Program-made: the position numbers and the translations under genes | NCBI RefSeq assembly: GCF_001586255.1 | Contig: NZ_CP014544.1 | Span: 2,511,501 to 2,575,500 of the forward strand | DNA: 64,000 nucleotides | Origin: Zhongshania aliphaticivorans | Lineage (GTDB): Bacteria; Pseudomonadota; Gammaproteobacteria; Pseudomonadales; Spongiibacteraceae | Reading direction: 5' to 3' | The notes under the pieces: model-generated | What the model was told of the DNA's origin: nothing | The model's input: only the letters and a program-made list of their open reading frames with translations | Databases searched by the model: none | Shown here: positions 29,644 through 33,135 of the stretch, piece after piece | Layout: each line of letters starts with the position of its first letter | How positions within the stretch are numbered: the first letter of the stretch is position 1

Positions 29644-30065
29644 AACTGTACCCTCATTATTTATATAATTTTAGAGTGAGCAGATAACGAGCAGTTAATT
29701 CCAGGCCGCGCTGGCCAATACCAACATTCAAACGCGGCCAAGGTAAGATTAACACCATTAATGGCCAAACCTGATTATCATTATTCTCCAGCGCAAGCAT
29801 CCCGGCACGGAATCGTTTCGATTTGCGCTAAAACCAAACAGACTTGTTCCGGTATCCGGCAAAAACCGTAGCATACTTGGCGAGGCGCCAAGCCCGCACC
29901 TGAACAACCTGCTCAGCTTAGCGCCCCAGCCGCTAACGAAAACCAGTAACAAAGAGCATAATCGTAAAATATTAGCAGCCACCCTAGTGACGGCCATCTG
30001 CCGCCATGCTAGTGTGCCCTGCTCCCAGCGGGCTATAGGCTATTTTGCAAAAGGAACTCACCGCC
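29644..30065. other. gene-free region between the AraC gene and the leader ORF
   Basis: About 420 bases without a supported gene. The 29758-29997 minus-strand reading frame lacks a plausible ribosome-binding site and family likeness. The AraC promoter should lie near the AT-rich stretch at 29655-29680, and the leader ORF/secDF promoter near the TATAGG at 30034-30039; neither has a clear -35 element. Confidence 0.5.
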
Positions 30066-30485
30066 TTGCCTCATATGAATGCCACGACCATCACCCAATC
30101 AACGGCGAATTCCACGCGCAATTTGTTTGCTGTGGCGAGCCATAAAGCACTAATAAGCTGCGTTGCCGCGCTGCTTAGCCTACTTTTCGTACTGACTGAA
30201 AACGCCAACGCCCCGTCATCTTATTTCTCTATTAGCAACGGCGATAATCCGAGTAATGAATTTGTTCTGACACCCCAGGGCTTCAGTTTTGCAGAACCAC
30301 GCCGCCTGATTATCGACGGTGGCGCCCAACCGGACACCGACAAAGCGGCTGTATTCCTTGAACCATCCGCTTTTTCAACCCAGCATTTAAACACTGGCCC
30401 ACTAGATTGCAGAACCACCTTCGATCAACGTCGGCGCCATTTTTGCGAGATCTTAAATCCTCGCGCACCTCCCTCCCGCTTATAA
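30066..30485 (+). CDS. putative secretion-monitor arrest peptide (RAPP type) controlling secDF
   Basis: A 139-residue ORF from the TTG at 30066 (AAGGAA lies ten bases upstream; an ATG at 30075 and a TTG at 30045 are alternatives). It has a polar N-terminus, a hydrophobic signal-peptide-like stretch (about 30-47) ending in an A-N-A cleavage-like site, a low-complexity middle and a basic C-terminus ending N-P-R-A-P-P-S-R-L. R-A-P-P / R-A-P-G is the arrest motif of the SecDF/YidC-linked peptides ApdA, ApcA and ApdP. Like VemP of Vibrio, this gene lies immediately before secDF. Export pulling on the chain would relieve the stall. The arrest has not been shown here; it is inferred. Confidence 0.75.
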   Translation: MPHMNATTITQSTANSTRNLFAVASHKALISCVAALLSLLFVLTENANAPSSYFSISNGDNPSNEFVLTPQGFSFAEPRRLIIDGGAQPDTDKAAVFLEPSAFSTQHLNTGPLDCRTTFDQRRRHFCEILNPRAPPSRL

Positions 30486-30606
30486 GCTCAGTTTCACCGC
30501 GTCGATCTACGCCGTTATGGGTATTTAGGCGCTTTTCGAACATAAGCAATTCAATATGATTGTTCGGTGACCACCGCCTGCGGTGGCGCCTGACCGCGAG
30601 AGATTT
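30455..30606 (+). promoter_or_regulatory. predicted mRNA stem masking the secDF ribosome-binding site
   Basis: AAATC-CTCGCG (30455-30465), inside the codons leading into R-A-P-P (30462-30473), is complementary to CGCGAG-A-GATTT (30595-30606), which ends just before the secDF ATG at 30607 and contains its GAGAG-like Shine-Dalgarno. The pairing is 11 bp with one bulged A. A small hairpin CCACCGC-CT-GCGGTGG (30571-30586) lies in the loop. A ribosome stalled at R-A-P-P would cover the left arm and free the right arm, switching secDF translation on. Confidence 0.65.
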
Positions 30607-33135
30607 ATGCGATATATTAAATTCAAAATTTTTAGTTATATAGCCATTGTCCTGATCGCTATTATTACTGCCTTACCAAGTCTACTACCCAGTACGTGGA
30701 TCGCCGACACACCTAACTGGTATCAGCAGCACAAAGTCACCCTCGGCTTAGACCTCCGTGGCGGATCCCACCTTTTACTGCACATTGACGATAAAAAATT
30801 GCTCGCCGAAACCAGACTGCAATTTGTCGACATGGTCAGTAGCCAGCTGCGAACCAATGGGATTCCGGCTGCACCGGCAAAGATCTCCGCCGACACCATG
30901 ACGATAAAACTGCGCAATACCGCGCAATTAGACGCGGCCCAACAACTAGCCGCAGATCTGCAAAAAGGCCAAAACCCGCGGCAATTCAAAGTGAGTGTTG
31001 TCGGCGATGCCCTGAATTTTGAAATGAGCAAAGCATACCGGACACAGCTTTTAGCGGACGCAGTACAGCGCAGTCTCGAGGTGCTAAAACGACGGATTAA
31101 CGAAACTGGCGTAGTCGAGCCCTTAATTACCAGCCAAGGCAACACCGGCATTTTAGTGCAGCTGCCCGGCGTAAAAGACCCCAGCCGAATTAAAGACTTA
31201 ATTGGCCGTACGGCGCAAATGAGTTTTCATTTAGTTCATGACGCCAGCCGTGATGGCGACGTCGCCACACTCGTTTTACCCGGCGCCGAGGCGCAAAAGC
31301 AGTACACCCTAAACCGGCAGTCGCTCATAAATGGTGGTGATCTCAGCGATGCCCGGCTGGGCTTCGACCCGAATACCCAAGAGGCTGTCGTTAACTTCCG
31401 TTTAAATCAACATGGCGCGGAAGTATTTGCCGACATTACCAAGGCTAATATCGGTCGTGCCTTTGCCATCGTACTCGACAATGTGGTTGTTACCGCCCCG
31501 GTTATTCGCAGTATCATCAGCGGTGGCGCAGGGCAAATTAGCGGCAACTTTACAAGCCGTGAGGCTAGTGATCTCTCGCTACTGTTGCGCGCGGGGTCTC
31601 TACCGGCGTCCTTAAGCATTGTTGAGGAGCGCACAGTAGGTCCAGACCTAGGCAGTGATGCCATTGCCATGGGCGTCAGCACCGGTCTCATAGGCGCAGC
31701 CTTGGTTCTTGGTTTTATGATGGCAGCCTACGGCCGCTGGGGTCTTATCGCCAACACTGCGCTCATCATCTACGTGGCCTTACTCATTGCCGCCCTGGCG
31801 GCCCTAGATGCAACCTTAACCCTACCCGGCATCGCTGGCTTAATTCTCAGCCTCGGCATGGCGGTAGATGCCAACATCCTCATCAATGAGCGAATTAAGG
31901 AAGAATGCCGCGTCAACGTCAGCGGTCGCTTTGCTGTACAGCGCGGCTTCGAGCGAGCTTTTAGTACCATTCTCGATTCCAATATCACCACGCTAATCGC
32001 CGTTGGCTTACTCTTCTTGTTCGGCAGTGGCCCAGTACGGGGGTTTGCTGTAACCATGGCGGTCGGCTTAATACTATCCATGTTTACCTCTATCGCCGTC
32101 ACCCGATTAATCATTGATTGGCGCGTTAATACACTCGGCAGAAAGCCCCTCGTCATAAAGGGCCTAGCCCTGCTAAACGGCTTTGGTAAACACCAAACTA
32201 TCCCATTTCTTAAAGCCAGTCGCGTCGGCATTATTATGTCGGCAGTGTTATCAGTGGCATCGATTGCCCTGATGTTTCAGCCTGGGCTTCACACCGGTAT
32301 CGATTTCAATGGCGGCACCGTGCTAGAAGTGCGCAGCCCCGCAAATACCAATATAGAAACCTTGCGGCAAAGCCTTGCCACCCTAAAACTCGACAATGTG
32401 GCGATCCAAGAATTTGGCGAACAAGGTAGCTTCCTCGTCCGCCTGCCCAGCCAGCCGCAGACCGAAAATGCAGAGGCGCGGATAAACGCAATAAAATCAG
32501 CGATCTCAAGTGTTGCTGAAGACGTGGCGTTTCCTCGTTTGGAAATGGTTGGCCCAAGTGTAAGCAGCGAATTTATTGCCACCAGTATGATTGCGGTATT
32601 ATTAGCCTGTAGTGGCATGTTTATTTATTTATGGAGTCGCTATGAGCGTTATTTTGCTATCGGCGCCATGGCAACCTTAGCATTGGATATTACGAAGACC
32701 TTGGGTTTTTTTGCCCTCACCGGCGTCGAGTTCAACCTGACTGCAATTGCCGCGCTACTCGCTCTTATCGGCTATTCGGTAAACGACAAAGTGGTGGTAT
32801 TTGACCGCATACGTGAAAACCTGCGCGCGAATCCGGACAAGCCCCTCGCCGACCTAATTAACGAAAGCCTCACATCAACATTAAACCGAACCGTATTTAC
32901 CTCGGCCACGACTTTTTTAGCCATTCTGCCGATGGGCATTGCAGGCGGCAGTGCTGTTGCCAGCTTTGCCTTACCAATGCTATTTGGCATTGTTATCGGC
33001 ACCAGCTCGTCGATTTTAATCGCTGCGCCCATCGTTCTCATCCTTGGCGAGCAGGCAATGGAGAAACTGAAATTACACGCGGGCGCGTCCCTGGCCCACG
33101 ACTCAAATCTGTTTTTACGTGAAGATCGACCGTAA
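30607..33135 (+). CDS. secDF: fused protein translocase subunit SecDF
   Basis: The 842-residue protein joins SecD (about 1-520) and SecF (about 540-842). SecD shows G-L-D-L-R-G-G-S-H after the first helix and the conserved membrane Asp in G-M-A-V-D-A-N-I-L-I; SecF shows G-I-D-F-N-G-G-T and Y-S-V-N-D-K-V-V-V-F-D. These carry the proton-coupled step that pulls exported proteins through SecYEG. It is shorter than E. coli SecD plus SecF (938 residues), mainly in the SecD periplasmic domain. The ATG at 30607 is preferred over the GTG at 30583, which lies in a hairpin. It is not next to yajC/tgt, so it is probably a second, regulated copy. Confidence 0.93.
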   Translation: MRYIKFKIFSYIAIVLIAIITALPSLLPSTWIADTPNWYQQHKVTLGLDLRGGSHLLLHIDDKKLLAETRLQFVDMVSSQLRTNGIPAAPAKISADTMTIKLRNTAQLDAAQQLAADLQKGQNPRQFKVSVVGDALNFEMSKAYRTQLLADAVQRSLEVLKRRINETGVVEPLITSQGNTGILVQLPGVKDPSRIKDLIGRTAQMSFHLVHDASRDGDVATLVLPGAEAQKQYTLNRQSLINGGDLSDARLGFDPNTQEAVVNFRLNQHGAEVFADITKANIGRAFAIVLDNVVVTAPVIRSIISGGAGQISGNFTSREASDLSLLLRAGSLPASLSIVEERTVGPDLGSDAIAMGVSTGLIGAALVLGFMMAAYGRWGLIANTALIIYVALLIAALAALDATLTLPGIAGLILSLGMAVDANILINERIKEECRVNVSGRFAVQRGFERAFSTILDSNITTLIAVGLLFLFGSGPVRGFAVTMAVGLILSMFTSIAVTRLIIDWRVNTLGRKPLVIKGLALLNGFGKHQTIPFLKASRVGIIMSAVLSVASIALMFQPGLHTGIDFNGGTVLEVRSPANTNIETLRQSLATLKLDNVAIQEFGEQGSFLVRLPSQPQTENAEARINAIKSAISSVAEDVAFPRLEMVGPSVSSEFIATSMIAVLLACSGMFIYLWSRYERYFAIGAMATLALDITKTLGFFALTGVEFNLTAIAALLALIGYSVNDKVVVFDRIRENLRANPDKPLADLINESLTSTLNRTVFTSATTFLAILPMGIAGGSAVASFALPMLFGIVIGTSSSILIAAPIVLILGEQAMEKLKLHAGASLAHDSNLFLREDRP

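Follow-up and report, generated by a model that had tools for sequence, protein, structure and literature searches.

The closest described relatives of the locus analysed here belong to the RQH family of arrest peptides, which has been defined as comprising 11 groups found before secDF and eight before secA, one of the latter being named in Pseudomonadales (PMC10987492). In its group uDF_RQH_Enterobacterales, the peptide of Alteromonas naphthalenivorans is encoded by a small upstream open reading frame (uORF) with an export signal and a RAPP-like end located before secDF2, and its arrest induces secDF2 via a stem-loop over the Shine-Dalgarno (SD) sequence of that gene (PMC10987492). The uORF in the window, that is the whole stretch of 64,000 nucleotides of Zhongshania aliphaticivorans DNA that was analysed, likewise precedes a second secDF. 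The Alteromonas peptide comes from another order and carries RGPP where the window uORF has RAPP, and the opening of the SD-masking stem-loop by the stalled ribosome, which was shown there, is predicted here, as is the stall itself (PMC10987492).

More distant systems share single traits with the window uORF. ApdP of alphaproteobacteria and ApdA of Actinobacteria also end in R-A-P-P at the C-terminus and are encoded by uORFs of secDF (PMC7897499; PMC10951233), but they belong to a different class or phylum, and since Zhongshania is a member of the Gammaproteobacteria, its uORF falls outside ApdP, the alphaproteobacterial uORF of secDF. SecM of E. coli can be likened to the window uORF in its export signal, its R-A-G-P end and the unmasking of an SD sequence by the stalled ribosome (PMC7897499). 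However, SecM controls secA, while the window uORF precedes secDF2 and ends in RAPP, which places it outside the SecM type, and its product resembles neither E. coli SecM (E 0.71) nor any of six likely ApdP-type uORFs from outside the class, for which no match by BLASTP fell below E 0.9. VemP of Vibrio is, like the window uORF, a uORF of a second secDF; its stall is released by translocation together with SecDF, and its cis elements (a short hydrophobic segment at 78-81, Arg-85 and an (Hphi)xP motif) are at a greater distance from the stall than those found here (PMC11470409). The features of the locus are as follows:

30050..30056, + strand: ribosome-binding site of the uORF, AAAGGAA (anti-SD duplex -5.6 kcal/mol for TTG 30066)
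30066..30485, + strand: uORF of 139 residues (from the sequence), predicted exported arrest peptide ending N-P-R-A-P-P-S-R-L
30150..30212, + strand: likely signal-peptide core (30150-30194) and A-N-A cleavage-like site to 30212, by hydropathy only
30312..30350, + strand: codons of the acidic window 38-50 residues before the motif (modest, 3 Asp of 13)
30345..30362, + strand: codons of the short hydrophobic stretch AAVFLE, 34-39 residues before the motif
30454..30465, + strand: 5' arm of the predicted masking helix (minimum-energy fold), Leu-Asn-Pro-Arg codons and first base of the Ala codon
30462..30473, + strand: RAPP codons CGC GCA CCT CCC (from the sequence)
30468..30473, + strand: predicted P site (30468-30470, first Pro codon) and A site (30471-30473), by analogy with toeprints in PMC10987492 and structures in PMC10951233
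30595..30607, + strand: 3' arm of the predicted masking helix (minimum-energy fold), SD region of secDF2 and A of its AUG
30607..33135, + strand: secDF2, fused SecD-SecF, second copy (Pfam SecD_SecF_C, SecDF_P1_head, SecD_1st)

The uORF starts at TTG 30066 and stops at 30485; its frame is already open from TTG 30045, and the best ribosome-binding site belongs to TTG 30066. In Z. antarctica a TTG stands at the matching place, with a ribosome-binding site duplex of -6.0 and a product of 138 residues compared to 139 here, and no in-frame ATG is among the start candidates listed for it. The product in the window ends in E-I-L-N-P-R-A-P-P-S-R-L. VemP, unlike this RAPP end, reportedly arrests at Asn-156 and without RAPP. 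When set against the criteria for monitoring substrates of the RQH kind given in PMC10987492, which ask for a small ORF of unknown function upstream of secA, secDF or yidC that encodes a secretion signal or transmembrane segment at its N-terminus, separated by more than 30 residues from a RAPP-like C-terminal motif found in at least three uORFs of one order, the uORF is a frame without a Pfam family at E<=1, 121 nt before the ATG 30607 of secDF2. Its hydrophobic core, recognised by hydropathy only (Kyte-Doolittle 2.96 over 12 residues) and followed by A-N-A, ends 89 residues before the motif, and RAPP-like ends occur at 30 of 31 loci from the family and order (RAPP itself at 23). A stall at the third residue of the motif, as the family has it, is predicted here at the first Pro codon. 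The initial annotation of this DNA had the extent of the uORF, its nine final residues, the position of the first Pro codon and the 121-base distance to secDF exactly right, and the signal-like segment with A-N-A that it described agrees with the hydropathy. A separate secD-secF pair is encoded elsewhere in the same genome.

Conservation was followed by searching for secDF2 with the window SecDF in 21 genomes of the family, 10 of which had a match, and in an even sample of 390 genomes of the order, 29 of which had one. These searches gave the 31 loci just mentioned, including one whose secDF2 contains an in-frame TAG (L052); the motif reads RAPP in 23 of the 30 positive loci, RGPP in 3, HAPP in 2, QAPP in 1 and RDPP in 1, and the sole exception of the order set, L049, has no RAPP-like uORF before its secDF2. 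Four later loci of the class with uninterrupted secDF2, found in a class sample of 369 genomes (L060 and L061) and a phylum sample of 398 genomes (L089 and L091), all carry a RAPP-like uORF, which brings the total to 34 of the 35 secDF2 loci examined in Gammaproteobacteria, although the loci are related and the counts hence not independent. Upstream of the housekeeping-type secD-secF loci from the class search, by comparison, a RAPP-like uORF was found at 0 of the 26 with readable upstream DNA, a count that leaves out L070, whose contig ends 82 nt upstream. Outside Gammaproteobacteria, 6 of 25 fetched loci have one, and these are likely alphaproteobacterial ApdP types. This distribution suggests that in the Gammaproteobacteria sampled a second secDF is almost always accompanied by RAPP-like control.

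Within the genus Zhongshania, where 8 of 18 genomes contain this second SecDF, the last ten residues of the uORF are identical in its two nearest relatives, from Zhongshania aliphaticivorans (93% overall) and Zhongshania sp. (81%). In Z. antarctica, whose SecDF is the one relative found in the genome contigs searched (81%), 6 of the last ten residues are kept, RAPP included, at 48% overall. Peptides of different groups can hardly be aligned, BLASTP reaching E<1e-3 for 1 of 153 group pairs. The spacing from the end of the hydrophobic core to the motif is 80-95 residues in 28 of 30 loci. For the SD-pairing and signal-distance tests 16 groups were used, and for the residue-peak and BLASTP tests 18, with L060 and L061. 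Through the drift of the remainder the arrest motif persists, as do its spacing from the signal, an acidic patch at fixed distance and, next to the arrest codon, a masking partner. Two checks proposed in the initial annotation, conservation of the last ten residues in close relatives and recurrence of the same ORF upstream of secDF in related genomes, both came out in its favour, and its reading as a RAPP-type arrest peptide gains support from this comparison of sequences. What did not hold is the implied novelty of the RAPP type in gammaproteobacteria, given that the Alteromonas secDF2 case with RGPP and the Pseudomonadales secA cases had already been described (PMC10987492). In a literature search limited to main texts, a uDF_RQH_Pseudomonadales group was not named, and no paper was found that contained both Zhongshania and secDF.

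Concerning the variant motifs, RDPP belongs to L047, QAPP to L050, HAPP to L039 and L040, and RGPP to L037, L054 and L058; RDPP is missing from the query motifs given in the passages of PMC10987492 consulted. The secDF2 of L049 has a strong SD sequence (-9.1 kcal/mol). The nine final residues NPRAPPSRL are identical in the window uORF and in that of L045 from another family, and the uORFs of L017 and L045, which come from different families, have these nine C-terminal residues in common and are otherwise dissimilar.

The SD sequence of secDF2 in the window is weak by itself (-3.0 kcal/mol) and is predicted to be sequestered by a helix with the end of the uORF. In the minimum-energy fold the two arms form 12 pairs with one bulge, a duplex of -15.2 kcal/mol by itself, and the core pairing is identical in 12 of 12 further fold ranges, naked-RNA folding being a rough guide only to these structures. 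The nearest relative, Z. antarctica (L018), can form this pairing in an unshifted register, a G-U pair replacing one G-C pair, but does so only when the folded stretch begins at most 20 nt upstream of the P-site codon; with more upstream sequence, other pairings win. Across loci, with SD sites chosen by duplex energy, 27 of 30 have the SD of secDF2 predicted to be paired, at a weight of at least 0.4, with a stretch between -8 and +24 nt from the arrest codon; L018, L038 and L047 lack such predicted pairing. Averaged over the 16 groups, the pairing amounts to 0.67 versus 0.11 in 100 dinucleotide-shuffle sets (highest 0.26), and all four later class loci show it with weights of 0.85-0.99 and 0 of 100 shuffles each. 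Masking a ribosome footprint raises the mean predicted SD exposure by 0.13 with an edge at +14 and by 0.23 with an edge at +21 (shuffle maxima 0.08 and 0.09), without a gain at edge +14 in 5 of the 16 groups. In the window the rise upon removal of the footprint is small, from 0.20 to 0.32 (0.39 at edge +21), and much of the SD site is then taken up by other pairings. At the loci from outside the class (L090, L092-L095 and L098), the SD of secDF mostly lacks predicted pairing near the arrest codon (1 of 6 has it), and their switch may differ from that of the class loci.

From this comparison it appears probable (roughly 0.82) that the uORF is a monitoring substrate of the RAPP-like (RQH) kind, which stalls at R-A-P-P until export frees the peptide and which, while stalled, exposes the ribosome-binding site of secDF2. 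The product would be exported during its synthesis, and we infer that the ribosome stalls at R-A-P-P until the force of export pulls the peptide free. With 30468-30470 in the P site, the stalled ribosome would cover the arm at 30454-30465, on a footprint size that we take to be typical, and thereby unmask the secDF2 ribosome-binding site. If the main SecDF, SecYEG or the proton-motive force failed, secDF2 would then be expected to be translated more. The uORF with its conserved motif, the fused second secDF and their near-universal linkage (34 of 35 loci versus 0 of 26 of the housekeeping type) can be read directly from the DNA, and they favour this mechanism along with the retention of the motif amid drift, the signal distance and the predicted SD pairing. 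By analogy it is further favoured by the Alteromonas relative, for which the same arrangement has been proven in function (PMC10987492). Counted against it are the locus without a uORF (L049), the three loci without predicted SD pairing (L018, L038 and L047), the little or absent exposure gain, the weak SD in the window and the finding that most RAPP-like sequences assayed from E. coli and B. subtilis did not stall (PMC10987492). Overall, comparison gives good support to the uORF as a probable RAPP-like arrest peptide, a new member of an already known kind.

When the peptides of the class are aligned at the motif, further elements emerge. Aspartate and glutamate peak 38-50 residues before the motif, with a mean of 3.5 acids per 13 residues compared to 0.3 at 25-37 and 1.1 at 51-63, and of the five windows compared it is the most acidic in 17 out of 18 groups, a set in which L054/L058 and L052/L059 were split on account of absent BLASTP similarity and L060 and L061 were left out. 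Circular-shift nulls that preserve clusters reached a maximum of 2.08 in 2000 against the observed 3.5. Hydrophobic residues peak 34-36 residues before the motif (z 5.6), and arginine and lysine 4-9 residues before it (z 4.3 and 5.3). The acidic pattern was first noticed in 16 groups, and the four later class loci served as a subsequent test, in which the patch was present in 4 of 4 (3, 4, 3 and 2 acids at 38-50). At the six loci outside the class, 1-2 acids at these positions give no clear excess over the adjoining windows, and E. coli SecM has one acidic residue there and no patch. In the window peptide the patch is modest, with Asp at 49, 43 and 41 before the motif, and further acids follow nearer to it at 34, 19, 13 and 5. 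An acidic patch at fixed distance in RAPP-like peptides seems to be undescribed so far: a literature search on acidic or negatively charged elements, covering passages of PMC7897499, PMC10987492, PMC6028853, PMC6037786 and PMC11470409, found no mention of one for such peptides, with only MifM matching in PMC10987492 and PMC7897499.

As to what the patch might do, stall release mechanisms are still poorly known (PMC11470409). Transmembrane helices start being pulled into the membrane at about 45 residues from the peptidyl-transferase centre (PMC7886326), and the membrane voltage pulls acidic stretches of nascent chains strongly enough to release a SecM stall, which also occurs with basic and uncharged stretches (reviewed in PMC6028853). 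Speculatively, the stalled chain would have its patch close to the mouth of the SecY pore, within reach of a pull by the membrane voltage. Because of these two observations (PMC7886326; PMC6028853) a voltage-assisted release can be envisaged, and we put forward, as a doubtful proposal, that the gammaproteobacterial secDF2 arrest peptides are nascent-chain voltmeters: with the Asp/Glu run in the SecY pore at the stop, the voltage pull would help release, and if it were lost upon failure of the proton-motive force or SecDF, the stall would persist, the codons leading up to the arrest motif (in the window also those that mask the secDF2 start) would stay covered and the spare motor would be made. 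The patch is a specific and easily mutated candidate for voltage-driven release.

A serious rival, which we regard as possible though rather unlikely, is that the uORF encodes an arrest peptide whose patch binds the ribosome exterior near the tunnel exit and strengthens the stall, with no voltage sensing. Its precedent is MifM, in which residues 41-60, about 30-50 residues from the stall, aid arrest via the ribosome exterior, probably through uL23 (PMC6037786), and the patch sits at a matching 38-50 residues from the motif. However, none of the RAPP-like peptides in the sources consulted was shown to need such a contact, uL23 is seemingly not critical for ApdA and ApdP (PMC10951233), and a distinct patch is missing from E. 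coli SecM as well as from the six uORFs found outside the class.

Other explanations dispense with a programmed stall. The leader ORF could act on secDF2 only through ordinary translation across the masking helix, as in translational coupling, since the helix overlaps the end of the uORF and any passing ribosome would therefore open it. Yet this would leave unexplained why RAPP-like ends recur before secDF2 in peptides that cannot be aligned, and why signal and acidic window each lie at a fixed distance, which makes it improbable. It is barely credible that the product is a plain small exported protein that ends in RAPP by chance: the lack of a Pfam match would fit, but [RQH][AGD]PP within the last 20 residues is seldom seen at the ends of ORFs (2 of 939 window ORFs of at least 35 aa, the uORF included, and 4 of 2428 among the other ORFs of the 31 loci) and is nevertheless conserved at this place in the operon.

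Between the uORF and secDF2, within the loop of the predicted masking helix, lies a strong inverted repeat, CCACCG-CCTG-CGGTGG (30571-30586). It has no T-run on its 3' side, and an intrinsic terminator was rejected for this interval, where a terminator scan gave none on the + strand. Seven loci (L051 and L054-L059) encode a shorter form of SecDF2 in which the match to the window SecDF begins only near residue 140. The possibility that these are broken SecDF genes was discarded after reading through their N-termini: the reading frame nevertheless opens with a SecD-like N-terminus, and the proteins look like a shorter form.
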